A stretch of 64,000 nucleotides of DNA from Chloroflexia bacterium SDU3-3 (GTDB taxonomy: Bacteria; Chloroflexota; Chloroflexia; Chloroflexales; Roseiflexaceae): assembly GCA_009268125.1 (NCBI GenBank), contig WBOU01000013.1, positions 62,001 to 126,000 on the forward strand, written 5' to 3'. Under the pieces are notes generated by a model, which was given only the letters and a program-made list of their open reading frames with translations, searched no databases and was not told the origin of the DNA. Below, in pieces: positions 13,071-60,668 of this stretch (the first letter of the stretch is position 1; each line of letters starts with the position of its first letter). Made by a program: the position numbers and the translations under genes.

Positions 13071-13886
13071 CTAGGCGGGCTGGATGGCGAGGCGCAGGCT
13101 GCCCAGGGCGTACTCAATACCCGCCTCTAGGTCGCTCAGGGTCAGCACGCCATCGAGGTCGACGCCGATCTGCACCATGGTCTGCGCGATCTCGGCCCCG
13201 ATGCCAGTGAAGATCACCAGGGTGCCCAGCAGGCTGGCCGCCCGAGCGGTCTGCAGCAGGTACTGCGCCACAAAGGTGTCGACGATCGCCACGCCAGTTA
13301 TGTCGATTATCACTGCGTCGGCGCTGTGCTCGGTGATCTTGGTGAGCAGCGCCTCCATCACCACGCCTGCGCGGTTGCTGTCGATCGCGCCGATCAGGGG
13401 CAACACCAGGATGCCGCTATAGATCGGGATGATCGGCGTCGACAGCTCGTTCACCAGCACCGCCAGGCGGTCGGCCTCGCTGCGCCGCAGCAGCAGGTCG
13501 CTCTGGCGCTCCTCGGCGGCGCGGGCGGCTGCGGCGCGGATCTGCTCCTGCTCGCGCAGCACCAGGGCGATCGCCGCGTCGTTCATGGCCAGCATCAGCG
13601 GCGAGAGCTGGCCGATCACGTGGCGGGCCTCGGCAGCGTGGCCAGCATCCAGCAGGGCGGCCTGCAGTGCCTCGGCCCCAGCCAGCAGCGACGAGAGCGC
13701 CAGCCCCGATGCGGCGAACTGCTGCGCCATAGCCCGCGCGTCGGCCTCGGGCGTCAGCAGATAGTCGGCCAGCTGCTCGCCCAGGCGGCGCAGCAGCGCG
13801 GGGTGCAGCGTGCCTCGGTTGTCCAGCGCGCGGGCGTGCATGGCCTGCTGCACAGCGGGGTAGAAATCGGCTGTCTGCATGGTCAT
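13071..13886 (-). CDS. RsbR-like STAS domain protein
   Basis: A 271-residue cytoplasmic protein. Residues 1-130 form an all-helical region without a recognised cofactor motif, in the position of the variable sensor domain of RsbR-type stressosome proteins. A short helix (EERQSDLLLRRSEADRLAVL) joins it to a STAS domain at about 145-260. The STAS domain carries IIDITGVAIVDTFVA, with Thr residues in the two places that are phosphorylated by RsbT-type kinases in RsbR/RsbS. The family relays stress or light signals through protein-protein contact and phosphorylation. Its start overlaps the stop of the DUF574 methyltransferase by 4 bases (ATGA), implying translational coupling. No cognate RsbT kinase is visible in the window. 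Confidence 0.85.
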   Translation of the reverse strand: MTMQTADFYPAVQQAMHARALDNRGTLHPALLRRLGEQLADYLLTPEADARAMAQQFAASGLALSSLLAGAEALQAALLDAGHAAEARHVIGQLSPLMLAMNDAAIALVLREQEQIRAAAARAAEERQSDLLLRRSEADRLAVLVNELSTPIIPIYSGILVLPLIGAIDSNRAGVVMEALLTKITEHSADAVIIDITGVAIVDTFVAQYLLQTARAASLLGTLVIFTGIGAEIAQTMVQIGVDLDGVLTLSDLEAGIEYALGSLRLAIQPA

Positions 13887-14662
13887 ACCTTCGTCACAAT
13901 CACGCCGTACAGATCCAGCGGCGACTCCTCCTGGCCTGCCTCATCGCCGCGCCACTGCGCCACGCCATTCCACTCGCTCAGCGGGATGATGCCGGGCTGC
14001 TCGATCTGCCACGGCCCCAGCAGCTCGCGCACCTCGTCGAGCGTGCGCGGCTGCACCGGCGAGCCCAGCTGGCGGTACATAGCCGCAAACGAGCTGGATG
14101 CGAAGCGCGCCACATCGGCTGGCTCGCCCGCCAGCCACGAGATGGCCAGCTTCGAGCCGGGGGCGCACCAACGGTAGAGCGCGCCCAGAATATCGCGCAG
14201 CACCGGCAGATCGAAGAAGTAGGCAACGCCGATGAAGCTGATGCCCACCCGCCGCTCGCCGCCGAAGTGCTCATCCGCAGCATCCAGAATGCCTGCGATG
14301 TCGGTCAGATTCGACTGGATGTAGCGCACCAGCGGGTTGTCGCCGATGATCTCGCGCCCATAGGCCACGATCACTGGGTCGTGGTCGTTGTAGAGCACGC
14401 GGGCCGTGGGTACCAGATCGTGGATGTAGCCCACCGTCGGCAGTCCGCTGGCTAGGTCGATCAGGCAGCCCAGCCCGGTGTCAGCCAGGCGGGCGGCGGC
14501 GTCGTACATGAACCAGCGGTTGAGCCGCGCGCCGCTGCGGCTGGATGGCATGAGCCGCAGCAGCTGCTCGGCGGCCACACGGTCGGCCTCGAAGTTGTTG
14601 GTTCCGCCTAGGAAGTAGTCGTAGATTCGCCCTGCGTTCGGAGTGGATGTGTCGATTTCCAT
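13883..14662 (-). CDS. DUF574 family SAM-dependent methyltransferase
   Basis: A 259-residue protein of the S-adenosyl methyltransferase family formerly called DUF574 (Methyltransf_19). It begins with the family signature NAGRIYDYFLGGTNNFEADR, continues with LNRWFMYDAAARLA and the SAM-binding strand LIDLASGLPTVGYIHD, followed by the acidic strand end VLYNDHDPVIVAYG. The substrate is unknown; the family is abundant in actinomycetes. The gene is first in a two-gene unit with the STAS protein, overlapping it by 4 bases. A promoter (TTGACT-17-TATCAT) lies about 130-155 bases upstream. Confidence 0.88.
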   Translation of the reverse strand: MEIDTSTPNAGRIYDYFLGGTNNFEADRVAAEQLLRLMPSSRSGARLNRWFMYDAAARLADTGLGCLIDLASGLPTVGYIHDLVPTARVLYNDHDPVIVAYGREIIGDNPLVRYIQSNLTDIAGILDAADEHFGGERRVGISFIGVAYFFDLPVLRDILGALYRWCAPGSKLAISWLAGEPADVARFASSSFAAMYRQLGSPVQPRTLDEVRELLGPWQIEQPGIIPLSEWNGVAQWRGDEAGQEESPLDLYGVIVTKV

Positions 14663-14790
14663 GATGCCCGACCTTTATCAGAACAGGGTGCCATTCCACA
14701 TGGCCGCCTACGCAGCCCGCTTTCTGCCCGCGCCAGCTGGGCGCTTCGCGGTAGAAAACGTACGTGTGTAGTAGCTTCGGATGCAGGGCG

Positions 14791-14819
14791 ATGATACTGC
14801 AAGTGATCGCATAAGTCAA
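14791..14819 (-). promoter_or_regulatory. Promoter of the DUF574-STAS unit
   Basis: On the minus strand TTGACT (14819-14814) and TATCAT (14796-14791) are separated by 17 bases. The predicted start leaves a leader of about 120 bases before the methyltransferase ATG. An ACGTACG element like those upstream of comM lies in this leader at about 14759-14765. Confidence 0.6.
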
Positions 14820-14885
14820 TGAAAATGAATAATCCGTTAGGAGTCGTTGTGCGGCTTGCTTCTGCCAAGCGCCCCGCGCGGCGCA

Positions 14886-14919
14886 CAAAAGGGCGGCGGT
14901 GGCAATGCCACCGCCGCCC
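14886..14919 (-). terminator. Terminator after pckG
   Basis: A perfect 14-bp stem GGGCGGCGGTGGCA / TGCCACCGCCGCCC with a single-base loop. On the minus strand it is followed by TTTT. It lies about 30 bases after the pckG stop codon. Confidence 0.88.
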
Positions 14920-14951
14920 TGCCGCCTACCGCGAGCGATAGGCGCTACCGA

Positions 14952-16784
14952 CTAGATCTCCCAGTGCTCGGGCGTGCGCCAGAGGTTCGAGAGGATCAGC
15001 TGGCGAACGAAGACCATCTCCTTCGGCAGCCGGTCAAACATCTTGGTGAACAGCTCCTCGTGGAGCAGCAGCTCCTGCACCCACTCCTCGCGGTCCACCG
15101 ACATCAGCTCGTGGAAGCGCTCCGCAGAGAAGTCCTCCATCCCGCGCCAGTCGAGGTCGCAGTAGCGGGGCATCCAGCCGATCGGGCCCTCGGTCGAGAC
15201 CGCGCGGCCACGGGCGCGCTCGACCACCCACTTCAGCACGCGCATGTTGTCGCCGAAGCCCGGCCACAGGAACTTGCCGTTCTCATCCTTGCGGAACCAG
15301 TTCACGCCGAAGATGCGGGGCGGGTTGGCCACGGTGCGGCCAAACTGCAGCCAGTGGTTGAAGTAGTCACCCATGTGGTAGCCACAGAAGGGCAGCATCG
15401 CCATCGGGTCGCGGCGAACCTGGCCGATCGTGCCAGCCGCAGCAGCCGTCATCTCCGAGCCCATCGTGGCGGCCAGGTAGACGCCGTAGGTCCAGTTGAA
15501 GGCCTGGTACACCAGCGGCATCAGGGTCGAGCGGCGGCCACCGAAGATGAAGGCCTGGACGGGCACGCCCGCCGGGTCTTCCCAGGCCGGGTCGATCGAG
15601 GGGCACTGGCTGGCCGGGGCCGTGAAGCGGGCGTTCGGGTGCGCCGCCTTGCGGCCGCAGTCCGGAGTCCAGTCCTGGCCGGTCCAGTCGATCAGGTGCG
15701 CGGGTGGGTTCTTGGTCATGCCCTCCCACCACACGTCGCCGTCATCGGTCAGGCCGACGTTGGTGAAGATGGTGTTCGACTTGGCCGACTCCATCGCGTT
15801 CGGGTTGGTCTCATACGAGGTGCCAGGCGCGACGCCGAAGTAGCCGCTCTCGGGGTTGATGGCGCGCAGCGTGCCATCCTCGCCGGGCTTGATCCAGGCG
15901 ATGTCGTCGCCGACGGTCGTGACCTTCCAGCCCTCGTCGGTAAACGCGGGGGGCGGGATGAGCATCGCGAAGTTGGTCTTGCCACAGGCCGAGGGGAAGG
16001 CGGCGGCCACGTAGGTCTTCTCGCCCTGGGGATCCTCGACGCCAAGGATGAGCATGTGCTCGGCCAGCCAGCCCTCGTCGCGGGCCATCGTCGAGGCGAT
16101 GCGCAGCGCGAAGCACTTCTTGCCCAGCAGCGCGTTGCCGCCGTAGCCCGAGCCGTACGACCAGATCGAGCGCTCCTCGGGGAAGTGCACGATGTACTTC
16201 TGGTCCTTGTTGCAGGGCCAGGCCACATCCTTCGCGCCGGTCTCCAGCGGAGCGCCGACCGAGTGCACGCAGGGCACGAAGTCGAAGCCATTGTTCAGGT
16301 ACTCGTGCACCTGCTTGCCCATGCGGGTCATAATCCGCATGTTCACCACCACATAGGGCGAGTCGCTGATCTCAACGCCGTACTGGGCGATCGGCGAGCC
16401 GAGCGGGCCCATGCAGAAGGGGATGACATACATCGTGCGACCCTTCATCGCGCCGTCGAACAGCTTGGCCAGGGTCTCCTTCATCTCCTTGGGGTGGACC
16501 CAGTTGTTCGTGGGGCCGGCATCGTCCTTCGAGATGCTGCAGATGAAGGTGCGGTCCTCGACACGAGCGACATCGCCGGGGTCCGAGCGGGCCAGGAAGC
16601 TGTTGGGGCGCTTGGCCTCGTTCAGCTTAATGAAGGTGCCCGCCTCCACCAGCTTGGTGCACATCGCATCGTATTCCTTCTGCGACCCATCGCACCAGTA
16701 GACAGAGTCGGGCTTAACAAGCTGAGCGATTTCCTCAACCCAGCTGATCAGTTTCTGATTGCGAACATATTCCGGAGCACTCAT
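14952..16784 (-). CDS. pckG: Phosphoenolpyruvate carboxykinase (GTP)
   Basis: A 610-residue enzyme of the GTP-dependent class, converting oxaloacetate and GTP to PEP, CO2 and GDP. The P-loop with the hyper-reactive cysteine is present (FPSACGKTN), as are the [14 protein letters not shown] metal/nucleotide region, [16 protein letters not shown] and NWVHPKEM. The length is typical of the class. I chose the inner ATG at 16784 because GGAGGTAGCC sits directly before it; the upstream ATG at 16799 has no ribosome site. It stands alone between two terminators. Together with ppdK at 37.9-40.6 kb it controls PEP supply, as expected for gluconeogenic or autotrophic growth. Confidence 0.97.
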
Positions 16785-55633: not shown

Positions 55634-55660
55634 CCCGCCTAACTTGTTCCTACGTTCCAG

Positions 55661-55687
55661 CTTGGGGAGGCAGCGCGCCTCCCCAAG
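55661..55687 (+). terminator. Hairpin after trpA, possible terminator
   Basis: Perfect 11-bp stem CTTGGGGAGGC / GCCTCCCCAAG with a 5-base loop, about 28 bases after the trpA stop codon. No T run follows, so termination efficiency is uncertain. Confidence 0.55.
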
Positions 55688-55784
55688 CCTGTCTCTGACG
55701 CTGCTCGCAAAAAACCAGCGCTATCATTTGCTTTGCATTGAAAAAGAGCCGAGACTCTTTCAAAATGAGGAGAGGAAAACAGAC

Positions 55785-56867
55785 GTGAAAAAGCTGATCT
55801 ATATTGCCCACACCCAAGTTGGATTCGAGGAGATCGTGGCCGAGCAGCTGCGCCAGGAGTACACCGGGCTAAAGGTGCTGGGCACCCGCTCGGTCTCCGA
55901 TAAGAATGGCATGGTGCTCTTCCACTACGATGGCGCGATCCAGGATCTGTTCGACCTGCGCACGATCGAGGATCTGTTTGTGCAGGTGCTCAGCCAGGCC
56001 GGGCTGCCGCCAGTCTACGCCGGGCTACGCCTGCTCACCGATGGCGTGAAGGCCGCGCAGATGGAGGACGCCTTCACGCTCATCCGCTCGCTGCGGCCTG
56101 GCTTCGGCGGGCGCGGCGGCAAGACGCGTTTCCGCGTGATCGCGCGGCAGGCCAACCAGGCCAGCTACCGCCGCGTGGACGCCCAAGAGGCCGTGGAGAA
56201 GGGCATGAAGCAGCGCGAGGACCGCAAGTGGGAGCTGGCCGAGCAGAGCGCGATCGAGCTGTGGGTGACCATGCTCACCAACGAGGCCATCGTGGCGCTG
56301 CGCCTGAGCGACGAGAAGATGCGCCGCCACACCGAGAAGCGCGAGCACCTGCCCGCGTCGCTGCGGCCCTCGGCGGCGGCGGCGCTGGTCTGGCTCTCGC
56401 GCCCGCGCCCCACCGATGTGTTCCTCGACCCTATGTGCGGCGCGGGCACCATCCTGATCGAGCGCGGCGAGGCCGGGCGCTACAAGCAGCTCTACGGCGG
56501 CGACATCCGCGAGGAGGCCGTGGCGGCTACCCTAACAAACATCGGGCCGCGCTACAAGCCGATCAGCATCGAGGAGTGGGATGCGCGCAGCCTGCCGCTC
56601 GCCGACGAGTCGGTGAGCAATGTGGTGGTGAACCTGCCCTTCGGCCAGCAGATCGGCTCGTACGAGGAGAACCGCACGCTCTACCCCGCGTTCCTGCAGG
56701 AGATGAGCCGCGTGGTGCGGCCCGCCGGTCGCCTCGTGGCGCTCACCGGCGACATGCGCTCGTTCGAGACGGCGCTGCGCCGCAACACCAACTTCACGCT
56801 GCTGCGCCAGTTCTCGGTGATGGTGCTGGGGCGCGCGGCGGCGGCCTACCTGTTCGAGCGCAACTAG
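55785..56867 (+). CDS. THUMP-domain RNA methyltransferase (Trm14/RlmL-like)
   Basis: A 360-residue protein. Residues 1-165 contain a ferredoxin-like and THUMP region (LIYIAHTQVGFEEIVAEQL ... TRFRVIARQ) that binds RNA. The Rossmann methyltransferase follows with the SAM site FLDPMCGAGTILIERG, YGGDIREEAV and the NLPFG catalytic loop (in place of NPPY). It most likely methylates a guanine at N2 in tRNA or rRNA. GTG 55785 follows GAGGAGAGG; the upstream frame is not coding. Its last codons reappear in degenerate form at 59832-59865, on the far side of the AT-rich insert. Confidence 0.9.
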   Translation: MKKLIYIAHTQVGFEEIVAEQLRQEYTGLKVLGTRSVSDKNGMVLFHYDGAIQDLFDLRTIEDLFVQVLSQAGLPPVYAGLRLLTDGVKAAQMEDAFTLIRSLRPGFGGRGGKTRFRVIARQANQASYRRVDAQEAVEKGMKQREDRKWELAEQSAIELWVTMLTNEAIVALRLSDEKMRRHTEKREHLPASLRPSAAAALVWLSRPRPTDVFLDPMCGAGTILIERGEAGRYKQLYGGDIREEAVAATLTNIGPRYKPISIEEWDARSLPLADESVSNVVVNLPFGQQIGSYEENRTLYPAFLQEMSRVVRPAGRLVALTGDMRSFETALRRNTNFTLLRQFSVMVLGRAAAAYLFERN

Positions 56868-56870
56868 GCG
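56850..56870 (+). repeat. Left copy of direct repeat (methyltransferase 3' end)
   Basis: The bases CTGTTCGAGCGCAACTAGG around the methyltransferase stop codon. A similar stretch on the other side of the AT-rich insert (59846-59865) reads CTTGTTCGCGCTCAACTAGG. The similarity extends leftward by about 13 bases with three mismatches. Confidence 0.6.
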
Positions 56871-56875
56871 CAGCG

Positions 56876-56914: not shown

Positions 56915-56998
56915 TCGGCAAAATTATGATATCCAAGCCACAAGCAAATCCATGTTGGCTACAGTTAAGATTAGAACCACTATTCCAAGTTAAACCAA

Positions 56999-59530
56999 CT
57001 AAGACTGATGTCCTTGATTCCGAACGCTCAACCATTGCTTATCATAATTCTTACTTAGCATCAACTCAATCTGCCTTAATAGAATACCATCATCTTTATT
57101 AAAGCAACCCTGACTGCGTTTAGCTTCTATCCGTCGATGAACTGCCCATAGAATTGTTAGAGCACTATATATAAGTATACGTACTGATTGTGGATTCTTC
57201 TTCTCTAATTTACCTACGGACTTATAAATATCACCACCATCGATTTTACTATCTGATTTATCGCCAGAACTCGTCATTATTCCACCATAAACATCGTAGC
57301 TTAAAATTTTCAACCCACCAAAACGAAACTTCTCATTCTCTTCCACCAAAAACAGCATATAACCAGAAACACTTATAAGGTCTTTTATATATTTATCATT
57401 ATAATTACTTTCTTCTTTTTCATAATCATCAATATTAACCTTATACAGCATATCACATATGAAATCTGTATACTTCACAAGCTTCTCTGGAGAATCCCTA
57501 TCTTTACTATGTATTATATTCATTTTCGGATGAATATAATATTTTATTATTTTTTCAATTGTATTTTTAACTTTCCCTGTTTTATTACCACTAATATACT
57601 TATTTAAATCTAATATAGATTTTCTACTTAGACCAATACAAATATCAACTAAATGCGTAAAAAGGCTGATCTCAAGAAAATCATTATCTTCTGAGAAAGC
57701 AGCCTGATCTTGAATATCACTTCCCTTACATACGCCTTCAGATCCTTTAGCTCTTATGCTATTTACTTGATGAACACCCTGATAAACAAAAATAGCACTA
57801 TTATTTTCATGATGGCGGCCATCTGCTGTCATATCCAAATCTGATCCAGCATTAATAGTCAATACTACACCCACATGCACATCAGCTGAGGGATTTACAA
57901 TCTTCTCATCGTAATCAATATTGATCTCCTCATAACCATGGGTCGCATCTTTCCAAAGTGCTATGTTTTTCCAGCCATCCTTATAACGTTTATCATTACC
58001 ACGTTTTGTCATGCCCAATGCGCTTAACGACAGTACCGATGTACCAGGATCGTCAGCCATCACACTTGCATAGCGCCCAGACCAGCGAGCTTTGCTCTGC
58101 GGGCCATCAAGTAACAATGCTATCAACAGTGTGGGTCCTATCCCTCGTACCAGCTCCGACACGGGGTCAAGCCGAGCAAGGTCTTCACAGACCAGAGGGC
58201 AAAGCGTAAACCATTCATTTGCTGCAAGGACAGAAAGCCTCCGCATATAGAAATTGGTCGCCTCCCACCATAATTTTTTACTTGTTAGCACACTACCCAG
58301 CTTATATTGTAAAATCTGCTGTTGATTAAGACACCAACGATGGTGCTTATTCTGCATCATCCGATACCATTTACCAGCAAAAAACGTAGACATGTAAACC
58401 ATATTATTAGAGAGCCTGCCAGTATCAATTTCATCAAGATTATCACCCGCATGGCCACAGATACCCGATATAACTATCGGCATCTTATCTCTATCTTGGT
58501 TTTTGGTAAGGAAACTTAAAAATGCATCTAGCTGTTTTTCTGTTAGGGCCTGCTCTGGCAAGACGACCATATGAATGCGGCCAATTGATTCTTCTGCATT
58601 TTTTATCAGATCATACGCAACATCAGGTTTGAATTCTTCTTTCGCGCCAATATATTGAAAGTATCTTGTGTTTTCATAACTATTCCTATCAGTAGCAAAT
58701 GTACTAGCCCGAAAACGATCAGTATCAATCGTGAAAGGCCAGGGGATTATTAATATATTAACAATATTATCATCAATATTAACTAAAGGCATTGTTCTCC
58801 AGCGTATCTCTGCTTCTGTCTGGTGAGATGTCAGATGATGAGACACTGAGCGTAGAGTCATCCCTACAGTAGGGGTTCGTAGCTTTGGCAAGATAGATAC
58901 AATATTTTTCGGAAGACGAGACAGTGTCCCATGCAAAGAAAGCAAGTTATTGGCAACAAATATAACCATCTTCGTTTTATGTCTTAAATCATGCTCCTTA
59001 TTATCATCAGTGTGTTCTACTAATGGTATGCCAAATCCTCTACAGGTCTCATCAGCTATTGCATGTAGCTCTAATAAAACCTTTGCAACTTCCCAAGCAT
59101 CATCTTGATTATAGCTATAGGCATTTTCATTTTTAGATTCAACATACTCATTCTCATCGAATAGATCCTTCTTTGTATCTGGACTAATAAGTGCTGATAG
59201 ATGTCTCAATGTTACTCTTCCAGCGCTTTCTCGAAGCTTATTCTTAAGTTTTTCTAATTTCTCCATGTGTGAGTTTTCATTTACAATATTCTCAATCCAT
59301 TCTTTCTTATAAGCTTCAAGATCTTTATCCCAAGTCTTGCTTTCAGGCCATGTTTTTGTTGGAGCTACCGCCAAGAGATAACTACCAGTGCGGCTAAAAA
59401 TTAGCGATGTTAGAGCAAAAACATCCGGTGGCCAAGCAAACCAATCATCCAAATTCCATTTTGGATTTAGCTGGTTCATAAACTCAAAGACTGTCGGAGA
59501 ATCACTTGCAATATTTTCAGAATCACTCAT
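56999..59530 (-). CDS. Large protein with a nitrilase-type (carbon-nitrogen hydrolase) domain, AT-rich alien gene
   Basis: An 843-residue protein with codon use unlike all its neighbours. Residues about 255-510 have the order of the nitrilase superfamily: a first strand IVNILIIPWPF, Glu326 in MVVLPEQALTE, Lys395 in QNKHHRW and Cys448 in LCPLVCEDLARLDPV, then GPTLLIALLLDG and SVLSLSALG. This would supply the Glu-Lys-Cys triad. Residues 1-250 (helical, with TPTVGMTLRSVSHHL) and the last 330 residues match nothing that I recognise. No reverse transcriptase YxDD motif is present. Nitrilase domains occur in some antiphage reverse transcriptases (UG1/DRT1), so a defence role is possible but unproven. 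ATG 59530 follows TGAGG; ATG 59542 is an alternative. Confidence 0.72.
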   Translation of the reverse strand: MSDSENIASDSPTVFEFMNQLNPKWNLDDWFAWPPDVFALTSLIFSRTGSYLLAVAPTKTWPESKTWDKDLEAYKKEWIENIVNENSHMEKLEKLKNKLRESAGRVTLRHLSALISPDTKKDLFDENEYVESKNENAYSYNQDDAWEVAKVLLELHAIADETCRGFGIPLVEHTDDNKEHDLRHKTKMVIFVANNLLSLHGTLSRLPKNIVSILPKLRTPTVGMTLRSVSHHLTSHQTEAEIRWRTMPLVNIDDNIVNILIIPWPFTIDTDRFRASTFATDRNSYENTRYFQYIGAKEEFKPDVAYDLIKNAEESIGRIHMVVLPEQALTEKQLDAFLSFLTKNQDRDKMPIVISGICGHAGDNLDEIDTGRLSNNMVYMSTFFAGKWYRMMQNKHHRWCLNQQQILQYKLGSVLTSKKLWWEATNFYMRRLSVLAANEWFTLCPLVCEDLARLDPVSELVRGIGPTLLIALLLDGPQSKARWSGRYASVMADDPGTSVLSLSALGMTKRGNDKRYKDGWKNIALWKDATHGYEEINIDYDEKIVNPSADVHVGVVLTINAGSDLDMTADGRHHENNSAIFVYQGVHQVNSIRAKGSEGVCKGSDIQDQAAFSEDNDFLEISLFTHLVDICIGLSRKSILDLNKYISGNKTGKVKNTIEKIIKYYIHPKMNIIHSKDRDSPEKLVKYTDFICDMLYKVNIDDYEKEESNYNDKYIKDLISVSGYMLFLVEENEKFRFGGLKILSYDVYGGIMTSSGDKSDSKIDGGDIYKSVGKLEKKNPQSVRILIYSALTILWAVHRRIEAKRSQGCFNKDDGILLRQIELMLSKNYDKQWLSVRNQGHQS

Positions 59531-59634
59531 GATATGCCTCATTTCAAGTGTGCCTCTGCCATAAAACATGCAATATAAGCATATCACATATGTCAATCAA
59601 AAATATAATTTTACAGGTAAAATATATCACATAC

Positions 59635-59684
59635 TAAATAAGATGTCTTGCTATATCAGCTGATATAGCAAGACATCTTATTTA
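59635..59684. repeat. Perfect 50-bp palindrome
   Basis: The 25-bp arms (59635-59659 and 59660-59684) are exact reverse complements with no spacer; the left arm reads TAAATAAGATGTCTTGC then TATATCAG. It lies about 105 bases upstream of the nitrilase-like gene start, at the right edge of the AT-rich insert. It could be a bidirectional terminator, an operator or a recombination/replication structure. Confidence 0.9.
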
Positions 59685-59715
59685 CCAACTTTCAGTATGG
59701 CGTTACCCAATATCA

Positions 59716-59835
59716 TCAACAGTACTCCCGGAATATCTTGGTATGCCCCAAAACCGCGCAGAAGCTCTGCCCCGGCACCAGCGCCAGAGCCAGCCGCCGC
59801 AACAGGTGGGCCAGCACCACCCGCATCTGCAGCTG
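59716..59835 (-). pseudogene. Cytochrome P450 3'-end fragment
   Basis: The minus strand from 59835 reads QLQMRVVLAHLLRRL, ALALVPGQSF, then CAVLGHTKIFREYC and a stop. The intact P450 in this window (62181-63503) has QLQMRVVLAHLLRRL, DLALVPGQSF, RAVPVPTKM at the same place. The DNA match is very close over about 100 bases and then decays toward the C-terminus. The heme-binding region and everything before it are missing, so this is a remnant formed by duplication or recombination with the intact gene. Confidence 0.88.
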
Positions 59836-59867
59836 CGGCAAGCTACCTTGTTCGCGCTCAACTAGGC
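59832..59867 (+). repeat. Right copy of direct repeat (methyltransferase 3' end remnant)
   Basis: GCTACCTTGTTCGCGCTCAA then CTAGGCGC matches the end of the methyltransferase gene with a one-base insertion and a few substitutions: 29 of 34 aligned bases by eye, between 59834-59866 and the copy ending at 56871. It joins directly to the P450 fragment at its left and to the stop codon of the BKACE gene at its right. Confidence 0.65.
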
Positions 59868-59868
59868 G

Positions 59869-60603
59869 CTAGGCATGCCCAGCGGCGCTCGCCCTTCGGC
59901 GTGCCTCGGCGATAAGCGCAGCGTTATCCTGCGCCAATGCGCCGCCGGGCAGGTCGAGCACATCCTCCAGGCCAATGCGGGTGCTGTAGCCGCGCGCCAG
60001 CGCCAGATCGAGCACCGGCCAGGCGGTAGCATCTTGGCCGTGCAGCAGGCGGGGCGTCCGATCGGCGGCATAGTCGAGCGCCGCCTCAATCTGCGCGATG
60101 GTCGCCATCGCGCCGTGGAGCGTCGGCTCGCCTGGCTCGATCAGCACCCGCAGGCATGCTCCGGCAAGCCCCCAGCGCACATAGGCCTCGGCGGCGGCGG
60201 CGCTGTCGATCCCGGCCTCTACCGCCACGCCCAGGTCCGCAAGCGCGGCGCACAGCTCGCCAGCGCCCGGCTCGGAGAAATTGACCGAGGCGAAATCGGG
60301 CAGCTCGCGCCACGAGGCCACCGCAGCACGGCGCGCCTCGACATCCGGCAGGATGCTGAACAGCGTGCTCACGCCCACAGGCACACCAGGGCAGGCGGCG
60401 TGCACCGCCAGCAGCGCCGCGCCCACATCCGCCGCCGCAAGCGACTGGTGCCCAGCGGCACCGCGCGGGTGCATGTGGATGGCCTGCGCGCCAGCGTCCA
60501 CCGCAGCCCACGCCGCATCCGCAAGCTCGCGCGGGGAGAGCGGCAGCGCGGGGTGATCGCCTGGCGCGCGCGCGCCGTTCAGACAGACTTTGAGCAGCGG
60601 CAT
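59869..60603 (-). CDS. BKACE family (DUF849) beta-keto acid cleavage enzyme
   Basis: A 244-residue TIM-barrel enzyme. It begins LLKVCLNGARAPGDHPALPLSP, with the family's zinc-site motif AIHMHPRGAAG, and later GVSTLFSILPDVEARRAAV and VNFSEPGA. BKACE enzymes condense or cleave beta-keto acids with acetyl-CoA, as in lysine fermentation or carnitine degradation; the substrate here is not predictable, and it is somewhat shorter than the classical Kce (about 275 residues). ATG 60603 follows GGAGG. It lies directly right of the insert junction, and its 3' end touches the methyltransferase-like remnant but is intact. It is separated from the oxidoreductase gene by a long inverted repeat. Confidence 0.85.
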   Translation of the reverse strand: MPLLKVCLNGARAPGDHPALPLSPRELADAAWAAVDAGAQAIHMHPRGAAGHQSLAAADVGAALLAVHAACPGVPVGVSTLFSILPDVEARRAAVASWRELPDFASVNFSEPGAGELCAALADLGVAVEAGIDSAAAAEAYVRWGLAGACLRVLIEPGEPTLHGAMATIAQIEAALDYAADRTPRLLHGQDATAWPVLDLALARGYSTRIGLEDVLDLPGGALAQDNAALIAEARRRASAAGHA

Positions 60604-60626
60604 CGTATCCTCCTTCAGCAAAACCA

Positions 60627-60668
60627 CGGGCCACCCCAAGGGTTGAGATCAACCCTTGGGGTGGCCCG
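60627..60668 (-). terminator. Long inverted repeat between oxidoreductase and BKACE genes
   Basis: Perfect 20-bp arms CGGGCCACCCCAAGGGTTGA and complement with a 2-base spacer. On the minus strand it follows the oxidoreductase gene by about 8 bases and is succeeded by TGGTTTTG. A terminator, or an attenuator for the BKACE gene downstream, is the likely role. Confidence 0.8.

Follow-up and report, generated by a model that had tools for sequence, protein, structure and literature searches.

A horizontally acquired nitrilase-fold gene in a Chloroflexia genome, a candidate phage-defence effector related to the nitrilase domains of reverse transcriptase fusions

An AT-rich gene between direct repeats

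The window analysed here is a stretch of 64,000 nucleotides from contig WBOU01000013.1 of Chloroflexia bacterium SDU3-3, and all positions refer to it. Near its right end lies an intact open reading frame of 843 codons on the minus strand, which starts with an ATG at position 59530. The GC content of this gene is 37%, that of the rest of the window 67%. The AT-rich stretch spans approximately 56920 to 59740, and apart from it every kilobase of the window has a GC content of at least 57%, which bears out the earlier note in calling this the only AT-rich gene in a GC-rich window. A foreign origin of the gene is well supported. The features of the locus are:

56835-56871, plus strand: left direct repeat, the 3′ end of the neighbouring methyltransferase-like gene including its stop codon
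56999-59530, minus strand: coding sequence of a stand-alone nitrilase-fold protein of the long-form clade (843 amino acids, ATG at 59530)
59635-59684, no strand assigned: perfect 50-bp palindrome upstream of the nitrilase gene, a strong hairpin as RNA
59829-59869, plus strand: right direct repeat, an imperfect, attachment-site-like copy of the left repeat (19/22 in the core)

By inspection, the neighbours read as ordinary host genes, and the window copy is located outside any defence island. On the left a tryptophan synthase alpha-like gene comes before a methyltransferase-like gene (55644-56867, plus strand); on the right is a gene for a small metabolic enzyme (59869-60639, minus strand). The nitrilase gene sits between imperfect repeats of the 3′ end of the methyltransferase-like gene. 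By chance 0.01 such repeat matches are expected, and the score is not reached by any of 2950 control pairs. Such a pair resembles the attachment repeats flanking elements whose point of entry is the end of a gene. No integrase gene and no Rfam family were found within the insert, and no tRNA gene in the window. An empty insertion site was not found among relatives and could not be demonstrated, because relatives do not keep the two flanking genes together. The palindrome occurs at a single place in the genome and folds as RNA with −34 kcal/mol; it is a candidate terminator, operator or element end.

A nitrilase fold with a predicted active site

The structure of the protein was modelled with AlphaFold2 on an alignment of 77 family members, which resulted in a pLDDT of 81.8 and a pTM of 0.88. 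Parts and residues of the protein map to the minus strand as follows:

58913-59530, minus strand: N-terminal helical domain, residues 1-206, conserved family-wide, with invariant Asp160
58823-58894, minus strand: conserved linker motif, residues 213-236, consensus VLPKxRTPxxGxTLRSLSHH, with invariant Lys216 and Gly223
57773-58783, minus strand: nitrilase domain, residues 250-586, assigned by fold match and by profile kinship to RT-fused nitrilase domains
58553-58555, minus strand: Glu326, predicted catalytic Glu of the nitrilase set (77/77), aligned with the Glu of the PE motif in RT-nitrilases
58346-58348, minus strand: Lys395 in the motif KHHRW, predicted catalytic Lys (77/77), aligned with the QGK motif of RT-nitrilases
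58262-58264, minus strand: Glu423, invariant (77/77), 25 residues before Cys448 in 74/77
58187-58189, minus strand: Cys448 in the motif CEDLAR, predicted nucleophile and counterpart of DRT1 Cys1116 (77/77), aligned with the ICYD motif of RT-nitrilases
57002-57697, minus strand: C-terminal helical domain, residues 612-843, found in the long-form clade only, moderate model confidence

In the model the nitrilase fold comprises residues ~250-586. The earlier note had put such a domain at residues 255-510; the placement holds, and the proposed end at 510 is somewhat short. Superposition of residues 250-586 with VIA-align gave the NadE glutaminase domain (Z 14.6), Nit2 (14.1) and formamidase (13.5) as matches, and many nitrilase chains are found at Z 12-14.6. 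On the strength of this model, the predicted nitrilase fold and membership in the nitrilase superfamily, the fold claimed earlier for the centre of the protein, are well supported. With the NadE glutaminase domain, Nit2 and the formamidase AmiF the protein has the fold and the Glu-Lys-Cys set in common, at an identity of 8-15% to superfamily enzymes among the matches listed; unlike them, it carries additional domains on both sides.

The ordered set Glu326, Lys395 and Cys448 had been read from the sequence at exactly the right positions. Invariance of all three in the 77 aligned homologues is far beyond chance. In nitrilases, Glu, Lys and Cys lie at a strand end, after a strand and at a strand-helix elbow, respectively. 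The model shows these placements too: Glu326 is near a strand end, Lys395 directly follows a strand, and Cys448 sits at a strand-helix elbow. That the set represents a nitrilase active site is a well-supported prediction. Glu423 is possibly the second Glu of a catalytic tetrad, judging by its spacing to the Cys. Asp475, Gln478, Arg482 and Trp483 are likewise invariant in 77/77.

The flanking parts had been described as matching nothing, and this agrees with the searches: Pfam gave no match, and for the N-terminal domain no fold was found in the PDB. This domain of approximately 206 residues is modelled confidently on its own (pLDDT 87); its best PDB match has a Z of 3.1 and a Foldseek E-value above 1, a weak match that is no proof of a new fold. 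It might be a sensor or an oligomerisation part. The viral fold library BFVD gave no match, and a search of the PDB by sequence profile returned only noise.

A widespread family related to RT-fused nitrilases

Searches of Pfam, NCBIfam and PADLOC gave no match for the window protein, and PHROGs returned only noise. It does not reach the curated cut-off of Pfam CN_hydrolase (PF00795), and the 77 aligned members likewise lack convincing Pfam matches, the best for PF00795 being a single member at E 0.07. Homologues were collected by tblastn with the window protein, which gave 12 plasmid records and, in the phages collection, no record carrying a family member. In the genome_contigs collection the single-sequence query gave no matches and a twelve-row alignment query 174 relatives, of which 80 were kept; the alignment holds 77 members. 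Relatives come from Acidobacteriota, Pseudomonadota, Myxococcota, Planctomycetota, Bacteroidota and other phyla. The family is undescribed and widespread in bacteria.

Among related genomes its spread is sporadic. Only one clear carrier (41% identity) was found in 150 of them, and its copy, too, stands alone and is AT-rich (36% GC), with ordinary genes on either side. Nitrilase genes are more than 3 percentage points AT-richer than their flanks at 46 of 77 loci, compared to 9% of control genes.

The window protein belongs to a long-form clade (support 97), the members of which have the extra C-terminal helical domain; other members are mostly shorter, with about 490-750 residues. In many short forms a small ORF lies within 60 bp downstream. 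One similarity group of these ORFs is present at 16/73 short-form loci, and 0/685 control ORFs join it; further groups are small and mutually unrelated, many loci have no small ORF, and neither has the window long form. We considered whether the long-form C-terminal domain is the small downstream protein of the short forms fused on, which a profile comparison rejects (E 0.5). Two tandem, clearly related long-form genes are found in a deltaproteobacterial MAG (L016:9947-12706 and 13343-16216); the second deviates from the KHHRW motif and nevertheless keeps Lys395.

The earlier note had pointed to nitrilase domains fused to reverse transcriptases (RT) in antiphage systems. We compared the nitrilase region of the family by hhalign with six RT-fused domains (E 3.7e-7, with Glu, Lys and Cys aligned), with seven housekeeping nitrilases (E 0.0097) and with the reversed RT-nitrilase profile (E 0.15), all of these being single-pair values from profiles of few sequences. 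Single housekeeping nitrilases gave matches to a family-specific profile that were too weak for use. By profile, the family domain is nearer to RT-fused (DRT1/UG5-type) than to housekeeping nitrilases; this is well supported, and the comparison bears out the link to RT-fused nitrilases. In addition, 4 of 12 members weakly match the PADLOC RT_UG5-nitrilase profile.

The absence of an RT motif, noted before, is borne out: the window protein has no YxDD motif and no RT match in Pfam or PADLOC. Its own genome has no RT_UG5-nitrilase match, and across member loci an RT profile matches only one ORF, near one locus. DRT1 and the class 3 UG/Abi RTs (UG1, UG5-nitrilase) have the same catalytic residues in a related C-terminal nitrilase domain, and RT-nitrilases share plasmid and defence-island settings with the RT-free family. 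Differences are the length (843 amino acids compared to about 1230 in DRT1), the RT domain lacking in the window protein and the motifs, KHHRW and CEDLAR in the family against QGK and CYD in RT-nitrilases. The N- and C-terminal domains of the window protein cannot be aligned with the middle region of DRT1, and a relationship of the N-terminal domain to that region was rejected, since the comparison shows no likeness.

For DRT1 it has been reported that the nitrilase Cys1116 is required for immunity, that the system acts through abortive infection with protein-primed DNA synthesis and filament formation, and that the nitrilase substrate is unknown (PMC13275509). Protein-primed DNA synthesis is not expected in the family, because an RT is lacking; nor are filaments expected.

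Prophages, defence islands and a possible function

Family genes were found in five contigs of the viral_contigs collection. In a P2-like prophage contig (L126), tail genes, a repressor and an integrase are followed directly by the nitrilase gene; another viral contig with a nitrilase gene encodes portal, terminase, integrase and a CI-type repressor. Hotspots with defence genes have been described for P2-like elements (PMC9122126), and among the hotspot genes described there no member of the RT-free nitrilase family was found. Single-gene abortive-infection genes beside P2-like prophage integrases have the same layout and position as the nitrilase gene of L126. In a further viral contig (L129:674-1240) a truncated nitrilase gene lies beside an integrase-like ORF and, by eye, an apparent type I specificity gene, as if it were being lost.

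Some of the bacterial loci are clearly defence islands, with genes for cyclase, E2, TIR, VPA1262 and SIR2 proteins. Type I restriction genes adjoin some family loci; a DUF262-like pair, a type II methyltransferase and MzaE/AbiU-like proteins are located near long forms; and CBASS-type effectors lie near some members according to a PADLOC neighbour scan, which counts families, not proteins. Many other members adjoin housekeeping or transposase genes, and the defence neighbours are examples from individual loci. Had homologues been only housekeeping amidases, the proposal of the earlier note would have been refuted; instead, members occur in prophages, and some lie among defence genes. On the checks which that note proposed, its reading as a candidate defence gene is supported. 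A partner gene common to the loci was not observed, in keeping with a single-gene system.

We interpret the window gene as encoding a stand-alone, single-gene nitrilase effector that would defend against phages by abortive infection and is related to the DRT1 effector, though free of an RT; the probability of this reading is roughly 0.6. Defence is the best reading because of the prophage carriage, the island settings and the kinship with a proven effector. The broader proposal is that the RT-free nitrilases form a cross-phylum family of immune effectors, so far undescribed, whose N-terminal domain lacks a PDB match; this proposal has about an even chance of being right. In the proposed mechanism the small foreign insert would carry the gene for an effector of the nitrilase superfamily. 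The N-terminal helical domain, together with the C-terminal domain in the long-form clade, might sense infection or control oligomerisation. Once triggered, the nitrilase with its Cys448 would cut an essential small molecule at an amide bond or a related C-N bond, and this cleavage would stop the cell before phage release.

A horizontally acquired amidase or nitrilase that has no part in phage defence, and whose substrate is an amide from the environment or the cell, would have the same fold as the NadE glutaminase domain, Nit2 and formamidase, and many immediate neighbours are indeed ordinary genes, including those of the window copy and of its nearest relative. We regard such a metabolic role as rather unlikely, since housekeeping nitrilases are further away by profile than the RT-fused ones, constant metabolic neighbours are lacking, and the sporadic spread, the prophage carriage and the extra conserved domains argue against it. 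Carriage by plasmids and prophages would also suit a toxin or addiction gene that retains mobile elements, or a prophage gene for lysogenic conversion with a role other than defence. The small ORF of the short forms could then encode an antitoxin or regulator, for which the one group at 16/73 short-form loci (0/685 control ORFs) speaks. However, no small partner accompanies the long form of the window, the small ORFs belong to several groups without mutual relationship, many loci lack them, and the kinship of the nitrilase is with a known defence effector, which makes this explanation unlikely.

The lone gene in an insert without integrase could be a catalytically inactive relic, which is very improbable given the open frame of 843 codons and the presence of all invariant family residues. 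Descent from a DRT1-type gene by loss of the RT would account for the related nitrilase domains, but this is an old and diverse family with intact members in many phyla, it has a conserved N-terminal domain of its own that is unlike the DRT1 middle region, and the RT_UG5-nitrilase match missing from the window's genome is a further point against it; this degenerate origin is disfavoured and has hardly any probability.

If the broader proposal of a family of immune effectors is true, the family would, together with DRT1, show nitrilase to be a reusable immune effector module that different sensors can drive. A nitrilase that is not tied to an RT would be a simpler protein for finding the substrate, and the family would add at least 174 loci from one genome collection, a group missing from Pfam and PADLOC.

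Among the RT-nitrilases themselves, a true one is present in a related genome, and more are found on plasmids, several of them annotated as reverse transcriptase. No relationship was seen between the small ORFs that follow RT-free genes and the one downstream of RT-nitrilases. On Vibrionales and Alteromonadales plasmids a small ORF of 140-168 amino acids with a hydrophobic N-terminal stretch lies behind each of the RT-nitrilase genes:

L137:4363-4785, small ORF after a plasmid RT-nitrilase gene
L138:4337-4789, small ORF after a plasmid RT-nitrilase gene
L139:4178-4684, small ORF after a plasmid RT-nitrilase gene

The Sinorhizobium meliloti plasmid pRM41A (L140:2203-5220) encodes an RT-nitrilase-like protein of 1005 amino acids that is annotated as hypothetical only. 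In Pedobacter panaciterrae an ORF of 1852 amino acids (L020:15190-20748, minus strand) with an RT-like stretch (FVDD) is located ~3 kb from the nitrilase gene, and its N-terminal part looks primase-like by eye.
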